64,000 bases of DNA from Thermoproteota archaeon. GTDB taxonomy: Archaea; Korarchaeota; Korarchaeia; Korarchaeales; Korarchaeaceae. The first letter of the stretch is position 1, and each line of letters opens with the position of its first letter. The stretch lies in contig JALSOH010000004.1 of the NCBI GenBank assembly GCA_026986575.1, positions 660,693 through 724,692 of the forward strand. The letters run 5' to 3'. A program made the translations under genes and the position numbers. Shown one piece after another: positions 21,131-27,304 of this stretch. Under the pieces are notes generated by a model. That model was not told the DNA's origin. It was given only the letters and a program-made list of their open reading frames with translations, and did not search any database.

Positions 21131-21712
21131 TCACCTCAAGAGTATCTCGTCCAGTCTGACTAGTACTGCTCCTTCCCTTACCATCTCGTCCTTGGCCCTC
21201 TCCTCATTACTCGGATCTATACCCCTCACTGCATCTTCCACGATGAAGACCTCGAATCCCAGCCTCAGCGCATCTAGGACGGTGGCCCTAACGCAGTACT
21301 CGGTCGCGACGCCTCCCACGAAGAGCCTCTTCACCCCTCTCTCCTTGAGGATCTCCTCCAAGTCAGTCCCCTCGAAACCCGAGTACGCATCCTTATCTCT
21401 ATCTGTCGCCTTGGAAACTATCATGGCACCTTCGGGGACCATCAGATCGGGGTGAAACTCAGCACCCTCGCTTCCTTGGACGCAGTGAGGGGGCCAAGGA
21501 CCGCCTCTCTGCTTGAAGGATACGTGGTCGGGAGGGTGCCAGTCCCTAGTGTAGATCACGGTGAAACCCCTCTCGGCGAAATGAGAGATCAGGACATTCA
21601 AGGGTGCCACCACCTCGTCCCCCTTGGGGACGGGGAGGGCGCCCCCAGGCATGAAGTCCCTCTGAACATCCACCACGATGAGCGCGGGATTCCGGACCGG
21701 TGCTACCCTCAT
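21131..21712 (-). CDS. pncA: Nicotinamidase
   Basis: This isochorismatase-fold hydrolase deamidates nicotinamide to nicotinate for NAD salvage. The catalytic triad is visible as the aspartate of VDVQRDF, the lysine of SKATDRD and the cysteine of GGVATEYCV. Metal ligands appear as D and H in TRDWHPPDH. The length of 193 residues is typical. The gene follows the ArsA-like cluster after 56 bases and precedes a TIGR04076 gene. Confidence 0.92.
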   Translation of the reverse strand: MRVAPVRNPALIVVDVQRDFMPGGALPVPKGDEVVAPLNVLISHFAERGFTVIYTRDWHPPDHVSFKQRGGPWPPHCVQGSEGAEFHPDLMVPEGAMIVSKATDRDKDAYSGFEGTDLEEILKERGVKRLFVGGVATEYCVRATVLDALRLGFEVFIVEDAVRGIDPSNEERAKDEMVREGAVLVRLDEILLR

Positions 21713-21768: not shown

Positions 21769-22815
21769 TCAGACCTCCAGCTCATCCAAGAAGTCGGGAA
21801 TCCAAGAGAACATATCCTGCGAGACCCTGGCCACCATGTCCACTCCCACTACCTCGCTGGGGTAGACGGGGATGTAGGACCTCACCAAGGGTCCGAGGTC
21901 CCTCTCTATCTCGGCCATGTACCCGAGCTGCTCCCTGTACTTGTTCCTTATGTACTCATTTGTCGTCGCCTCAGCGACTGCCTTAGGTATCACCTGATTC
22001 ACGATGACCCCGCCGACGGGAATGTCGAAGCCCTTCACCATCTTGATGAACCTCTTAACTACCGCTATGGGTAAGGAGAGCGGTAATGTGACGAAGAAGA
22101 ACGCAGTGAGCTCCTCGTTGAGCAGAATGTCCTTGACCCTGTTGAACCTGTCTTGCATGGACAGAAGGTCGGCCATTAGGGGATCCTTCTTTATCTCCTC
22201 CATCACCTTCTCCTTGCGGAAGGACAGCTTTACCCTCAACGATAAAGCCTCCTTCCTGCTCTCAATCATCCTCTCAAGCCAAAGCCCGTAGATCTTGCTC
22301 AAACCTATCAGTCTGGCCGCGTTAGCGACGGCGGCAGTGTCGAAGACAACCACATCATACTCCTCACCCTGCTGGAGCACCACATCCATCATCTTATCGA
22401 ACATCGCCGACTCTTGGAAGGCCGGGTTCGTGGTAGCTATGTCAATGAAGGGCTTAGGATCCATGGGTATGTCAGCCCACTTAAGGAACTCCGAAAGCCT
22501 CTTCGCAATGTTTTGCTTGTACTTCTCCACCACATCATCTATCTCCACTTCGAGGGCGTAAAGATTAGGAGCCCCCTCCACAGGCTTTATCACTCCTCCC
22601 CTCAGGTCCTGACCAAACAGGCTTGATAGTGAGTGTACAGGGTTGAGGGACACAAGAAGAGTCTTCTTCCCATCCTTGGCGAACCTGTATGCAAGGCCAG
22701 CAGCTGATATAGTCTTCCCGACGCCCCCTTTACCTCCGGTGAAGAGGAACTTGAGCTTAGGCTTCTTGGAGAGGAACTCGGGCATCAACACCTTCTCCTC
22801 CAAGCTCACCACCAT
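21769..22815 (-). CDS. ArsA/Get3-like ATPase, divergent partner subunit
   Basis: This is a deviant-Walker-A ATPase of 348 residues (FTGGKGGVGKT, 25-35). In switch I the catalytic aspartate of the usual DPAHS is replaced by asparagine (SLNPVHSL, N58). Switch II reads DTAAVANAARL instead of DxAPTGHT, and the adenosine-loop P-E..E motif is not recognisable. No CxxC pair is seen. It overlaps the upstream ArsA-like gene by ten bases. I infer a heterodimer in which this subunit hydrolyses ATP poorly. The ATG at 22815 is coupled to the upstream stop. ATG 22785 with GGAGGAGAAGGTG ahead is an alternative. Confidence 0.8.
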   Translation of the reverse strand: MVVSLEEKVLMPEFLSKKPKLKFLFTGGKGGVGKTISAAGLAYRFAKDGKKTLLVSLNPVHSLSSLFGQDLRGGVIKPVEGAPNLYALEVEIDDVVEKYKQNIAKRLSEFLKWADIPMDPKPFIDIATTNPAFQESAMFDKMMDVVLQQGEEYDVVVFDTAAVANAARLIGLSKIYGLWLERMIESRKEALSLRVKLSFRKEKVMEEIKKDPLMADLLSMQDRFNRVKDILLNEELTAFFFVTLPLSLPIAVVKRFIKMVKGFDIPVGGVIVNQVIPKAVAEATTNEYIRNKYREQLGYMAEIERDLGPLVRSYIPVYPSEVVGVDMVARVSQDMFSWIPDFLDELEV

Positions 22816-23807
22816 AGCAGGTCCCTCCTCGAGTTCATCAGGTCCTCAGCGACCTTCGCAATCATCTCCAATCCTTTGGGCTCTCTATCATACATGGGAA
22901 TTATTGCAGCGATCAGGTCTTCGAACTTCTCTCTTATCTCCAGCAAGTGTTTCTCCTGCATCTCTATTTTCTTTCTCAAGAGTTCTGGAAGATCGGGCTT
23001 GTTCAACAGGTCCCTAGGATATATCTGATTGACGATCACGCCGGACATCTCTATGTTCAGCTCCCTGAACATCTCTAGCGCGCGTTCCGTATCCAGTATG
23101 GCCATCTTCTCCGGTACCATTACCATGAAGAAGGCCGTCTTCTCGGAGTTGGTCATCAGCTCGGTGAAAGTGGTCATCTTCTTCCTTATCTCCTCCAGTT
23201 CCTTTAGGACCATGTCCTCGGTCTGCATCCCTCCCTTCAGAGTTGCAGCCACGGCCTCGTACTCAGCAGCCTCTTTCCTGGCCTCAGTTATCTTGTCCAC
23301 CCAGGCGCTGAGGATCTCAGCCATCGCCACCATTCTGACCCCATGACCGAATGGAGGCATATCGAAGACGTAGAGGTCATACTCTCCCGAGGCCACCAGA
23401 TCTGCCATCGCATCGTACGTCGCTGATTCGTACATAGCCGGCTCGGCGGAGGTGCTATCTATGTACTCTTCAATCTCTTTGGGGAGTTCCTCCAGTCCAT
23501 ACATGTCCATTATCTTATGTTTAATCTCCTGTTGGTACTCGGCTATTTTCTTGTCCGCGTCTATCTCTACTACGTAAAGATTGGGCGCAACTTCCACGAC
23601 TCCCTTACCGAAGAGGTCCCTCTCGAAGATGTCGCTCAGTGAAGCTTGGGGGTCAGTGCTGAAGCAGAGGACCTTCTTCCCCTCATTCACGGCCATATGG
23701 TAGCTAAGGGCGGCACTGCTAGTGGTCTTTCCCAAACCACCCTTCCCAGCGAACACCACCACCTCTATATTCGGCTTCCTCTCGAAGAATTCAGCTAAAC
23801 CCACCAT
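22806..23807 (-). CDS. ArsA/Get3-like ATPase, canonical-type subunit
   Basis: The 333-residue ATPase has GKGGLGKTT (21-29), switch I TDPQASL with D52 kept, switch II DMPPFGHGVRM and an adenosine loop MVPEKMAILDTERAL. These are the ArsA/Get3 nucleotide-site elements. A long helical insert (about 160-225) occupies the place of the client-binding region. There is no metal-binding CxxC, so a classical Get3 zinc dimer or arsenite pump is unlikely. It is preceded by a 107-residue membrane-like protein and CstA and followed by a second, altered ATPase. The client is unknown. Confidence 0.85.
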   Translation of the reverse strand: MVGLAEFFERKPNIEVVVFAGKGGLGKTTSSAALSYHMAVNEGKKVLCFSTDPQASLSDIFERDLFGKGVVEVAPNLYVVEIDADKKIAEYQQEIKHKIMDMYGLEELPKEIEEYIDSTSAEPAMYESATYDAMADLVASGEYDLYVFDMPPFGHGVRMVAMAEILSAWVDKITEARKEAAEYEAVAATLKGGMQTEDMVLKELEEIRKKMTTFTELMTNSEKTAFFMVMVPEKMAILDTERALEMFRELNIEMSGVIVNQIYPRDLLNKPDLPELLRKKIEMQEKHLLEIREKFEDLIAAIIPMYDREPKGLEMIAKVAEDLMNSRRDLLWW

Positions 23808-23826
23808 GGAACCACTCTCCCGCTCC

Positions 23827-24150
23827 TCAGCCGCTCAGTAGATCGGTGAAGTCTCTCTCCCTGAACAGCCTCTCCTTCCACGACTTTATATTGGGAACGA
23901 CGTAGGGTAAGATCTTCAACGAGTAGTAGGGTGGGATTATCGGGAAGCCCAGCATGTCACCCAAAGTCATCAGCATGAAGAGGTGCTCCATGTGCATCCT
24001 GGTCTTCAGGGCCGCGGTAGCTGCCCCGTGGACAGCGAAGCCATAGAGCACGCCCTTAAGGGCCTCGGAAACTCCTTCCTTCTTTTCTTCCTTCTTTTCC
24101 TTATTCTTTCTACCGAATAACGGGATAGGGATCACCTCCCAATCGAGCAT
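23827..24150 (-). CDS. Small hydrophobic protein beside the ArsA-like pair, paralogue of the 26026 gene
   Basis: No family was recognised. The 107 residues start with a lysine/glutamate-rich stretch (16-26). One or two hydrophobic helices follow (GVLYGFAVHGAATAALK and HLFMLMTLGDMLGFPIIPP), then ILPYVVPNIKSWKERLFRERD. The last part matches LLPYLLPEIEGWKQRQLRERD in the gene at 26026-26292, so they are paralogues. It lies 20 bases before the ArsA-like genes. It may be the membrane partner or client of those ATPases (inference). The start is uncertain. ATG 24150 is close to a T-rich run, and GTG 24135 is possible. A longer frame overlapping cstA is not credible. Confidence 0.65.
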   Translation of the reverse strand: MLDWEVIPIPLFGRKNKEKKEEKKEGVSEALKGVLYGFAVHGAATAALKTRMHMEHLFMLMTLGDMLGFPIIPPYYSLKILPYVVPNIKSWKERLFRERDFTDLLSG

Positions 24151-24170
24151 GAAAAAGGGAAATAAAAGGT

Positions 24171-25904
24171 TTAGGGAGAGACAGCCTTGGCCTCTACTTC
24201 TCCTTTTCTGACCTTGAAGTAGGCGCTCCAGAGGGCGTAGCTCATGTAGATGCCAAGCACGAAGAGCACTATGCCTATGACGAAGAAGAGCGCATTGAGG
24301 GCCCACGCCGCCCCGGGATACTGGGTCAGCGGCGGTTTCGCCAGCGGCTTCTTTATACCGAAGGTACTCAGTCCGAAGGTGTATATCTCCCAGAGGAGGG
24401 CGGAGAGGGTGACGATGGTCATGAACGCGGCTGGCACGGCGGAATACCACGAGGGCTTGTTCATCTTGGCAACATAGAAGGCCACCAGCGTGAGGGCCAT
24501 CGCAGCCAGCAGCTGGTTGCTACCACCGAAGTATATCCACAAGTTTATCCAGCTTCCGGTCAATGCGAATATGATGGGCAGTATCAGACCTATCACGGTG
24601 GCTACATACTTGTTCCCGAGCCACTCCCAAGATCCCCTGAAGAGCTCGGCGCTGAACACACGCCAGTACCTTGTGACGAGCGCCTGCACAGTTATAGCAT
24701 AAATGACGAGGAATATCGAGAAGAACGTCAGTAGATACGCCTTTGAAGCATCCCCTCCGAGGAACGGGGCGGTCAGCAAGGTGGCTCCGTTAACGAAGGC
24801 CGATATCTTACCCTTAGCTATGAGATCCGGCGAGACGACCATGTAGGCAGCCAGAGCTGAGGTGGCGAGCAGACCCTCGGTGAGCATTGCTCCAGCCCCT
24901 ACTGGCCTGGCATCGGTCTCCACGTCAAGCTGCTTCCCAGTCGTGGAGGTGCTGACGAGGCTGTGCCATCCCGATATCGCACCGCATGCTATAGACACGA
25001 AGAGGATCGGGAATATCGGACCTACGTTCTGGACGTACCATCCCTTGAACGCTGGCTGGATAAGCTTCATGCCGGTAGCAGGAGATATGAGGGCGCCGAA
25101 TATTATCAGCAGGACCCCTCCTATGGCCGGAAATACTGCCACGAAGTTCATCGGGGTGATGAACTTGGGAAGCGGGACTATGGCTCCGACGAAGAGTATT
25201 ATCGCGAGGATTATCGACCACACTTGGATGGACCACGGGCCGAAGAAGTCCTTAGGCGGCCACGCCACAGCAGTGCCTACCCCAACACTGATCAGCGTGA
25301 GTATTATCGCCAGTGCGGTTACGCCGAAGATGTTAGCCTTGTACTTGTAGAGGAGCTCTCCCACTATGAGACCGGTTATTATGATGCCTATGGTTGCTAT
25401 GAAGGAACCTGGGAAGACGTTCCAGAATAGCGATACAAGATAGATGAACACCGCCGAGATTATCAGCAGGTAGAAGAGCAAGTATGCCAGCAGTATCTTC
25501 CTTCCCCTCTCTCCTATAGCGTTATAGACGAGGGGACCCATGGATCTGCCCTCGTTCCTGACCGTGAGCATTATGGTGCTGTAATCTTGGACCCAACCGA
25601 TGAACATGTTCCCTATTACTATCCAAATGAGGGCTGGCAGCCAGCCGTAGGCGACGGCTATGAACGGTCCCAAGATGGGTCCCAAGGCAGCTATGCTCTT
25701 GAACTGGAATCCATAGAGGACGTATCTACTTACTGGAAAGTACTCCACGCCGTCCAAGTACATGTGGGCTGGTGTAACCTTCTTCTCGCTTACCTCCCAG
25801 ATGTGCTCGTCGACCCACTTGGCGTACACGTAGTAGGCGAATCCGTAAGCAACTAGAGCCCCGATTATCCAGAGGGAGGGGGTCTCCAAGAACGCTACCT
25901 GCAT
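24171..25904 (-). CDS. cstA: Carbon starvation protein CstA family transporter
   Basis: This polytopic membrane protein of 577 residues has the CstA hallmarks: YFPVSRYVLYGFQFKSIAAL near the N-terminus, GPILGPFIAVAYGW, MFIGWVQDYSTIM and a conserved C-terminal half. Bacterial relatives import peptides or pyruvate. An aggGGGGT ribosome site precedes the ATG. The upstream 121 bases hold two palindromes. Downstream, after a T-rich stretch, come a small hydrophobic protein and the ArsA-like pair. The conserved order suggests a shared function, but no link between CstA and ArsA proteins is established. Confidence 0.92.
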   Translation of the reverse strand: MQVAFLETPSLWIIGALVAYGFAYYVYAKWVDEHIWEVSEKKVTPAHMYLDGVEYFPVSRYVLYGFQFKSIAALGPILGPFIAVAYGWLPALIWIVIGNMFIGWVQDYSTIMLTVRNEGRSMGPLVYNAIGERGRKILLAYLLFYLLIISAVFIYLVSLFWNVFPGSFIATIGIIITGLIVGELLYKYKANIFGVTALAIILTLISVGVGTAVAWPPKDFFGPWSIQVWSIILAIILFVGAIVPLPKFITPMNFVAVFPAIGGVLLIIFGALISPATGMKLIQPAFKGWYVQNVGPIFPILFVSIACGAISGWHSLVSTSTTGKQLDVETDARPVGAGAMLTEGLLATSALAAYMVVSPDLIAKGKISAFVNGATLLTAPFLGGDASKAYLLTFFSIFLVIYAITVQALVTRYWRVFSAELFRGSWEWLGNKYVATVIGLILPIIFALTGSWINLWIYFGGSNQLLAAMALTLVAFYVAKMNKPSWYSAVPAAFMTIVTLSALLWEIYTFGLSTFGIKKPLAKPPLTQYPGAAWALNALFFVIGIVLFVLGIYMSYALWSAYFKVRKGEVEAKAVSP

Positions 25905-26001
25905 ATTTACCCCCCTGAAAGTGACCTTTAAGTAGGTAAGGCGATCAGTTAGCTAATTAACTTTGCTATATACGTCTTTTGCTTATACTATGGAAAGATT
26001 T

Positions 26002-26018
26002 TTCACAAATTGTGTGAA
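26002..26018. promoter_or_regulatory. Palindrome TTCACA-N5-TGTGAA upstream of cstA
   Basis: This perfect 6-base inverted repeat, with a second overlapping one (CACAA-A-TTGTG), lies about 100 bases before cstA and just past the end of the small paralogue gene. A further near-palindrome, GTTAATTAGCTAAC on the minus strand, lies nearer cstA. They are operator candidates for cstA. Confidence 0.45.
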
Positions 26019-26025
26019 TGGATTT

Positions 26026-26292
26026 TCATACGGTTTCCGGGACCTCCTCCGTTATATCCCTCTCCCTGAGCTGCCTCTGCTTCCAACCCTCTATCTCAGG
26101 CAACAGATAAGGAAGGAGCCTCAGCATGATGGGTGTGGTCATGAGTGGGAGGCCAAGCAGTTCTCCCATGATCAGGAGGTTTACCGCATCCCTCAGCTTA
26201 GCCGCCTCCTTCCTCGTCTCCCAGTAAAGGTCGAAGTAGAAGAGCCCGAAGAGGAACTCCTTAGCAGCTCTCTTAAATTCCTCCCATCTCAT
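26026..26292 (-). CDS. Small hydrophobic protein, paralogue of the ArsA-linked 107-residue protein
   Basis: The product is 88 residues from ATG 26292, or 94 from ATG 26310. A first amphipathic helix (FKRAAKEFLFGLFYFDLYW) leads to LLIMGELLGLPLMTTPIML and the shared tail LLPYLLPEIEGWKQRQLRERD. The tail matches the protein at 23827 at many positions. Its start overlaps the end of the upstream hypothetical gene. Two copies on either side of CstA suggest a duplicated component of one system. The function is unknown. Confidence 0.65.
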   Translation of the reverse strand: MRWEEFKRAAKEFLFGLFYFDLYWETRKEAAKLRDAVNLLIMGELLGLPLMTTPIMLRLLPYLLPEIEGWKQRQLRERDITEEVPETV

Positions 26293-26746
26293 GGCAGAGG
26301 ACACCCACATCCTCGAGTATCTTCATTACATCCAGATGGGACGGGCCCTTAAACATTATCTGAATGGTCCTATCCGTGACATCGCAGTAATGGACCGTGA
26401 ACAGATGATTCCTATTCCTACCCGTTATGATTCCCCTCCCCACGTAGTACGCGGCTGGATGACCCCCCATCTCCGTTTCACCGGTCCTCTCTATCCTAAT
26501 CCTAGGTTTCAGATCCTTCCTGCCAGGTCTGACCACGATCCTCATGTCCACAGCGTAGCTTGGGGTCGCTAATACATGATAGCTCTCCCCGTAGGTCACG
26601 TAAGCTATGTGACCTCTCCTCTCGTACTGAGTAATGTCCGATCCGTAGGCCGTGGCCATGACTTCCGCTTCATCCGGCACGGTGAGTGTTAGGAAGTCCA
26701 CTGTACCGAACAGGGAACTGACTGCCCTTATGTGTACCCGCTTCAT
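26273..26746 (-). CDS. Conserved-looking hypothetical protein
   Basis: No family was recognised in this 157-residue protein. It appears soluble and beta-rich, with no signal peptide or transmembrane segment. It contains repeated strand-like segments (VDMRIVVRPGRKDLKPRIRI) and a GHPAAYYVGRG motif, and ends with a helix holding a single cysteine. It overlaps the small hydrophobic gene at its 3' end, so the two are translationally coupled. It heads the CstA/ArsA neighbourhood. It is divergent from the membrane-anchored gene at 26804, with start regions about 57 bases apart. Confidence 0.65.
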   Translation of the reverse strand: MKRVHIRAVSSLFGTVDFLTLTVPDEAEVMATAYGSDITQYERRGHIAYVTYGESYHVLATPSYAVDMRIVVRPGRKDLKPRIRIERTGETEMGGHPAAYYVGRGIITGRNRNHLFTVHYCDVTDRTIQIMFKGPSHLDVMKILEDVGVLCHEMGGI

Positions 26747-26803: not shown

Positions 26804-27304
26804 ATGTACGAAATCGAGGTAGTGATAGCCATATCGGCCGTGCTAGCTGGCTGGTATTTCTTGGGCTCCTATCAGAATAGGAAGCTAACCTCCAAAGTGT
26901 GGAGTGCAGTGCTGGAACAGATGGAGGAATTCGCCTCGGAGATGGCTGCTAGGGAGCTTGGCGGCTCAGCTTTCATAGCCGTGGCTAAGGGAACTCGATC
27001 TCCATTTAGAAGGATTGAGATGGCCTATACAAGCCTCCCGAGGGAGATCTTGATCAACTACCTGATATCTAAGGCGATGGGGAGGAGAGATCTCCTCTCA
27101 GTGGTGGCCGACTTCAACACCACCCCGAAGGGCGAGAGAACTCTGAAGGACTTTCCCGATTTGGCGGTGGATGCGCTCTCCCTAAGGATACAAGGAGGGA
27201 ATCCTAACCTCAGAATCATCATGTCAGCCGAGCAGGTGCTGAATGGCTCCCTTGAGAGGATCTTATCAGCAGTCAGGGCAGCGTGCAGCTCAGGCCTGTG
27301 CTGA
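26804..27304 (+). CDS. Hypothetical protein with one N-terminal membrane anchor
   Basis: The 166-residue product begins with a single hydrophobic helix (VVIAISAVLAGWYFLG). A cytoplasmic-looking alpha/beta domain follows, containing DLLSVVADFNTTPKGERTLKDF and LRIIMSAEQVL. It is not a recognised family. A TATA-like GCTTTATCC at 26771-26779 predicts a leaderless transcript starting at ATG 26804. The frame also opens at TTG 26795. It ends next to the convergent gene at 27305 with no gap. Confidence 0.6.
   Translation: MYEIEVVIAISAVLAGWYFLGSYQNRKLTSKVWSAVLEQMEEFASEMAARELGGSAFIAVAKGTRSPFRRIEMAYTSLPREILINYLISKAMGRRDLLSVVADFNTTPKGERTLKDFPDLAVDALSLRIQGGNPNLRIIMSAEQVLNGSLERILSAVRAACSSGLC

Follow-up and report, generated by a model that had tools for sequence, protein, structure and literature searches.

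Operons that join the permease gene cstA to cstX, cstY and arsA were described in 2010 by Castillo and Saier, who proposed CstX as a linker between CstA and ArsA (PMC2963123). They counted 26 CstA–ArsA associations, of which 24 include CstX, and found CstY in five archaea; for one organism, 'Par', they give a paralogous CstX pair and two adjacent ArsA proteins (PMC2963123). Plasmids of Pseudochrobactrum, Paracoccus and Cytobacillus carry CstA, cory-CC-star and ArsA operons of the same order and families, with a single ATPase of canonical motifs (STDPAHN and DTAPTGH) and a small protein that ends in Cys-Cys, unlike archaeal CstX. We presume that 'Par' is Pyrobaculum arsenaticum. Here we analyse a locus in a stretch of 64,000 nucleotides (the window) from a Thermoproteota archaeon assigned to Korarchaeota in the GTDB lineage (assembly GCA_026986575.1, contig JALSOH010000004.1, positions 660,693 to 724,692). 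Judged by its sequence, it is an archaeal CstA–CstX–CstY–ArsA transport module in a two-ATPase form, whose ATPases differ in a fixed way at switch I. One CstA permease, two CstX proteins, CstY, a 157-residue protein (orf157) and two ArsA-type ATPases are shown by homology and gene order to be a conserved set. Its seven features, all but the last on the minus strand, are as follows.

21769 to 22815, minus strand: ArsA2, an ATPase matching PF02374 (E = 5.3e-56), in a clade of its own with support 100.
22806 to 23807, minus strand: ArsA1, an ATPase matching PF02374 (E = 1.8e-68), overlapping ArsA2 by 10 bases.
23827 to 24150, minus strand: CstX2, 107 residues from the ATG at 24150, matching NF041419 (E = 1.1e-7), a paralog of CstX1.
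24171 to 25904, minus strand: a CstA-family transporter of 577 residues, matching Pfam PF02554 (E = 2.5e-105).
26026 to 26310, minus strand: CstX1, matching NF041419 (E = 1.7e-6), overlapping orf157.
26273 to 26746, minus strand: orf157, with homologs beside two-ATPase loci and a structure model.
26804 to 27304, plus strand: a protein that fits CstY, with one N-terminal hydrophobic stretch, divergent from the neighbouring orf157.

The order of transcription is orf157, CstX1, CstA, CstX2, ArsA1 and ArsA2. Neighbours among CstA, CstX2, ArsA1 and ArsA2 overlap or lie no more than about 20 bases apart, and the four are therefore read as one operon; 19 bases lie between the end of CstX2 and ArsA1. 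The gene families and the operon are those of Castillo and Saier, with CstA next to CstX of about 90 residues and a single-domain ArsA of about 330. Thus the system is not undescribed, as the original prediction had it, because cstA-cstX-cstY-arsA operons and the idea of CstX as a linker were published in 2010 (PMC2963123). New here are the two cluster forms, the fixed split between aspartate (Asp) and asparagine (Asn) in the ATPases, the tail that marks CstX2, the CstX2–ArsA1 linkage and orf157. The portion of the 2010 paper at hand does not report the split, a class-specific CstX tail or orf157, and suggests homodimers (PMC2963123). In our literature search no further paper mentioned both ArsA and CstX, or both CstA and Get3.

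The asymmetry of the ATPases is seen in their motifs. Walker A is intact in both (GKGGLGKT and GKGGVGKT, the deviant form of the ArsA/Get3 type), and both proteins exceed the cut-off of TIGR00345 (E = 2.3e-66 and 4.3e-55). ArsA1 keeps the switch-I Asp (residue 52, codon 23654-23652, in STDPQASLSD) and has a near-canonical switch II, DMPPFGH. ArsA2 has Asn in place of this Asp (residue 58, codon 22644-22642), and its switch II is altered, DTAAVAN against DTAPTGH. In the alignment to solved structures, the Asn falls on the conserved Asp of 'STDPAHSL' in archaeal and fungal Get3. The same split is found in every pair, with Asp in 41 of 41 ArsA1 and Asn in 41 of 41 ArsA2 proteins by motif alignment; these labels are set by the switch-I residue itself, and are supported independently by the gene order (the downstream gene always has Asn), by the clades of the tree and by eight pairs, seven of them from Asgard genomes, which were fetched after the pattern was noticed and all show it. 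One further protein (L072), ArsA1-like by motif, was excluded as an unrelated, distant ArsA without CstX. In every tandem pair switch I reads STDPQAS upstream and S(L/F/T)NPxHSL downstream; switch II reads DM(P/M)P(F/H)GH upstream and D(T/C/M)AA(V/I)AN downstream, except in the three basal pairs, whose downstream switch II is DTAPVAH. ArsA1 and ArsA2 form one clade each (support 99 and 100), and the two subtrees mirror each other, which is the pattern that a single old duplication would leave if both copies were retained together.

The corresponding mutation is known from yeast, where Get3 D57N binds ATP and does not hydrolyse it (PMC12506534). We infer from the motifs that ArsA2 provides a hydrolysis-dead, ATP-binding site, and that ArsA1 and ArsA2 would form an obligate heterodimer. 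The ATPase fold family is common with Get3/TRC40 and archaeal Get3; unlike the Get3 homodimer, the ATPases of the window are probably two obligate paralogs, which lack the CxxC motif and a Met-rich client region. A described case of two Get3-like paralogs is the mycobacterial BagA/BagB (Rv3679-Rv3680), solved together in one structure (6bs3), whose models match both window ATPases, but distantly (E of about 1e-6 to 1e-7). In the genome of the window (G000) this pair accounts for all ArsA matches; most relatives have one more ArsA/Get3-like gene, set apart from the pair.

The two small proteins are true paralogs, as had been claimed for them, with 35% identity over 79 residues (E = 6e-11), and a genome-wide search with one of them as the query returns the other as the sole second match. 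Both match NCBIfam NF041419, 'cory-CC-star', at 28–32 bits, where the curated cut-off is 80 bits; from these scores, CstX1 and CstX2 are homologous to cory-CC-star and lie outside the curated equivalog. The C-terminal Cys-Cys is absent from all 85 archaeal CstX proteins examined and present in three bacterial cory-CC-star proteins. CstX2 consists of a basic N-terminus, a hydrophobic middle (residues 57–75 of 107) and a charged tail, WKERLFRERDFTD. The best 19-residue Kyte-Doolittle mean of the CstX proteins is 1.3–1.7. The AlphaFold2 (AF2) model of CstX2 is a helical hairpin (helices 17–66 and 74–106) of moderate confidence (predicted local distance difference test, pLDDT, 66), and a fold search with the CstX model gave no usable match. 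CstX2 is well conserved and CstX1 evolves fast (mean identity 0.60 and 0.39).

The proteins were assigned to CstX1 or CstX2 across loci by a PPYY motif and the CstX tree. The WK-RERD tail, which the original prediction had pointed out, is found in 37 of 37 CstX2-type, 9 of 30 CstX1-type and none of 18 one-ATPase-type CstX proteins; it is beyond chance and, in these alignments, is a mark of the CstX2 class. The open reading frame of CstX2 as listed begins at 24450 and runs into CstA. Its start is likely the ATG at 24150, giving the 107 residues, and possibly the GTG at 24135. A perfect-looking Shine-Dalgarno sequence, GGAGGTGATC, lies at 24130-24150, within the presumed first codons, and no standard in-frame start follows shortly 3' of it, so the true start is unsure. 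CstX1 has 94 residues from the ATG at 26310 and 88 from that at 26292. In two genomes (G025 and G026) a CstX2–ArsA1 fusion was considered from open frames of 445 and 439 residues and rejected, as one stop codon separates the genes.

The association of these families was surveyed in 29 genomes of the window's phylum, in 250 Thermoproteota, where nearly all CstA regions were fetched and annotated with profiles, and in Asgard genomes; the bacterial comparison sample consisted of plasmid records. In the window's phylum, CstA, the ATPase pair and CstX, the last in exactly two copies, occur in one and the same set of 14 genomes out of 29, and CstX is missing from the remaining 15. The small proteins thus do not occur mostly apart from ArsA-like genes, the case named as refuting the original prediction. 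For independent labels the chance of such co-occurrence is 1.3e-8, but the genomes are related. CstA is present in 51 of the 250 Thermoproteota, in loci with two CstX, ArsA1 and ArsA2, with one CstX and one ArsA, or with CstA alone; the two-ATPase form is also present in Asgard genomes. Archaeal CstX clusters of three phyla thus come in two forms, with a pair of CstX and a pair of ArsA, or with a single copy of each. Haloferax volcanii, which would carry a related form, likewise has matches to CstA, CstX and ArsA. Genomes with the ATPase pair nearly always have two CstX, and one genome has three; those with a single CstX found have broken contigs or an undetected second copy. The exceptions with CstX and without CstA in Thermoproteota and Asgard are few and are contig-limited or due to a broken match, and no such pair of ATPases lies next to a CstA that lacks CstX. 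The two-to-two pattern is probably the result of one ancient duplication.

Gene order also ties the small proteins to the ATPases. CstX2 and ArsA1 are adjacent in 36 of 36 two-ATPase loci, and CstX and ArsA in 17 of 17 one-ATPase loci, which agrees with the prediction of one system in which the small proteins belong with the ATPases. The small proteins also flank CstA on the same strand, as foreseen; the position directly before the ATPases holds for CstX2 (23827) and not for CstX1 (26026), which lies on the far side of CstA. CstX–CstA adjacency is broken in 8 of 36 two-ATPase and 5 of 18 one-ATPase loci, and in one genome (G233) the CstX/ArsA genes are 40 kilobases from CstA. The residual correlation of distances, after correction for the other families, joins ArsA1, ArsA2, CstX2 and CstA (0.39–0.67) and, as a second group, CstX1 with orf157 (0.46).

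The interval of the original prediction, 21769–26746, holds orf157, which was not named there, and ends short of the conserved CstY gene (26804–27304). No Pfam or NCBIfam family matches orf157, apparently an unnamed family. Thirty-two homologs were found beside two-ATPase loci, and their invariant residues are a Gly-His or Ser-His pair, one Cys and, at the C-terminus, Cys-His. The AF2 model is confident (pLDDT 88.9, predicted TM-score 0.86). Foldseek matches it to solved structures of PsbP, LpqN, DcrB, SciW and Mog1 with a best-chain probability of 0.93–1.00, and the best matches belong mostly to the Mog1/PsbP/DcrB (DUF1795) fold group; with E near 1e-2 and TM-scores of 0.4–0.5, this likeness is a fold-level statement, and no sequence family match accompanies it. 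The fold of orf157 is thus predicted to be Mog1/PsbP/DcrB-like. SciW is an Eag chaperone that binds transmembrane helices, and its structure with a transmembrane domain bound is known (PMC7773334). orf157 neighbours CstX1 in 17 of 26 loci, and in one genome (G018) the two stay together away from the operon. The 26804–27304 protein fits the CstY of Castillo and Saier in size and context. Its family is found near 29 of 38 two-ATPase loci, and its profile matches over the full length that of an about 210-residue protein with one transmembrane segment near one-ATPase loci (hhalign 99.1%, E = 1e-18).

A CstA-family permease with a small essential partner is known from Escherichia coli, in CstA–YbdD and BtsT–YjiX. 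These systems resemble CstA with CstX and have no ArsA; the loss of YbdD reduces pyruvate uptake to 20% (PMC5847655). YbdD and bacterial cory-CC-star proteins both end in RCC, and they have no more than this end in common. CstX was considered as a YbdD homolog and rejected, with no Pfam PF04328 match and undetectable homology (hhalign probability 0.5%). More broadly, bacterial cory-CC-star and YbdD/YjiX proteins (L131-L134) are otherwise unlike and all end in (R)CC, and archaeal CstX never does. On the E. coli plasmid pMTY18781-1 (L144, 1-801), yjiA, which encodes a P-loop GTPase, comes after btsT-yjiX; this order parallels CstA–CstX–ArsA with a different P-loop NTPase. The substrate of E. coli CstA is pyruvate or peptides.

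We suggest the following mechanism. ArsA1 and ArsA2 would form a heterodimer in which one site hydrolyses ATP and the other binds it without hydrolysis. The CstX hairpin, with its hydrophobic middle and charged WK-RERD tail, may dock the heterodimer on the cytosolic face of CstA. CstX2 would be the core adaptor, CstX1 and the Mog1/PsbP/DcrB-like orf157 a second, fast-evolving arm, and CstY a membrane-anchored accessory. ATP binding and hydrolysis at the single site would then gate or energise the uptake of a small carbon source by CstA. The general idea, in which the ATPases act on CstA by way of CstX and either gate or energise it, is in our view the best explanation and has about an even chance of being right. 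We think it less likely than not that the complete version holds, in which an obligate heterodimer with one dead, ATP-holding subunit docks via two CstX proteins and drives or gates the permease while the Mog1/PsbP-like protein serves the second CstX.

Several points weigh against the gating or energising model. The formation of the heterodimer, the hydrolysis deficiency and the contact with CstA are each inferred, and our literature search turned up no experimental work on CstX, CstY or ArsA proteins of this type. E. coli CstA works without ArsA, so the CstA family as such needs no ATP. As one ancient duplication is probable, the many two-to-two loci are not independent tests. In the portion of the 2010 paper at hand, T. 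kodakarensis has two CstX and is not listed with two ArsA, and Symbiobacterium has two ArsA and is not listed with two CstX (PMC2963123); thus the two-to-two rule may fail outside this sample.

The genes might also build the transporter rather than power it, with the ATPases as Get3-like chaperones, CstX or CstA as their clients, and orf157 holding CstX1. This agrees with the membership of the ATPases in the TRC40/GET3/ArsA family, with the hydrophobic middle of CstX, with the likeness of orf157 to SciW, and with the closed form of ATP-locked D57N Get3 (PMC12506534). However, the analogy with Get3 and tail-anchored proteins, drawn in the original prediction, is weakened by the proteins themselves. 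The CxxC zinc motif is found in none of 105 aligned ATPases. By sequence, the client-helix region contains on average 1.5 Met in ArsA1 and 3.0 in ArsA2, fewer than the 6 and 8 of two archaeal Get3 proteins, while its peak hydrophobicity shows no clear difference from them. CstX2 has no single C-terminal transmembrane helix that could serve as a tail anchor, as its hydrophobic part is internal, and the one-to-one gene ratio with tight linkage suits a stable subunit better than a client. We therefore regard assembly as doubtful, and CstX is better seen as an adaptor between the ATPases and CstA than as a Get3-type client; it may instead be a membrane receptor, the other role raised in the original prediction.

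Alternatively, the heterodimer could serve mainly as a nucleotide sensor that follows the ATP/ADP ratio and, via CstX, switches CstA open or shut in carbon starvation, with little energy coupling. A site predicted to be hydrolysis-dead and nucleotide-holding would suit such a role, and ATP need not power transport, since ArsA-free CstA transporters such as E. coli cstA-ybdD exist; yet the catalytic site looks complete in every ArsA1, and we consider a pure sensor unlikely. Co-regulation alone, from a common promoter in a starvation response and without interaction of the proteins, could account for the separation of CstA from the CstX/ArsA genes in G233 and for the solitary CstX1–orf157 in G018, but it is very improbable, as the proteins occur together even when their genes lie apart, CstX is always accompanied by CstA and the pair in the genomes of the window's phylum, the families retain a residual rate correlation, and the CstA–CstX–ArsA order is paralleled in Proteobacteria and Bacillota.

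If the complete version of this mechanism holds, a transporter would be coupled to an asymmetric Get3-type ATPase that is a constant feature in the window's phylum, in Thermoproteota and in Asgard archaea, and a CstA-family permease, otherwise proton-coupled, would be driven or gated by an ATPase. The findings bear on a question raised in 2010, namely whether transporters besides ArsB are powered, or no more than assisted, by ArsA-type ATPases. The constant difference between Asp and Asn is a natural equivalent of Get3 D57N and yields a sharp prediction on the working of the ATPase dimer, and the class-specific CstX tail and orf157 are concrete candidate partners. Where archaeal genomes carry 'arsA' genes in tandem next to cstA, these genes probably do not serve arsenic resistance.

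Last, we note some features of the surroundings of CstA. The CstA of the window matches the pyruvate/proton symporter model PRK15015 of NCBIfam at E = 7e-49, far under the cut-off of that model. A nicotinamidase/isochorismatase-family gene (21131-21712) lies directly downstream of ArsA2; it is kept in close relatives alone and is thus probably outside the system. The Thermoproteota loci with CstA alone are L071, L093 and L110-L117, and no YbdD-like gene was found beside CstA loci that lack CstX. In the eight genomes of L110-L117 the CstA-family protein is a different one, of 557–574 residues, without CstX or ArsA. In several of them a protein that looks by sequence like an MtbA/uroporphyrinogen-decarboxylase-type methyltransferase is encoded directly downstream, which suggests that this CstA is related to methyl compounds.

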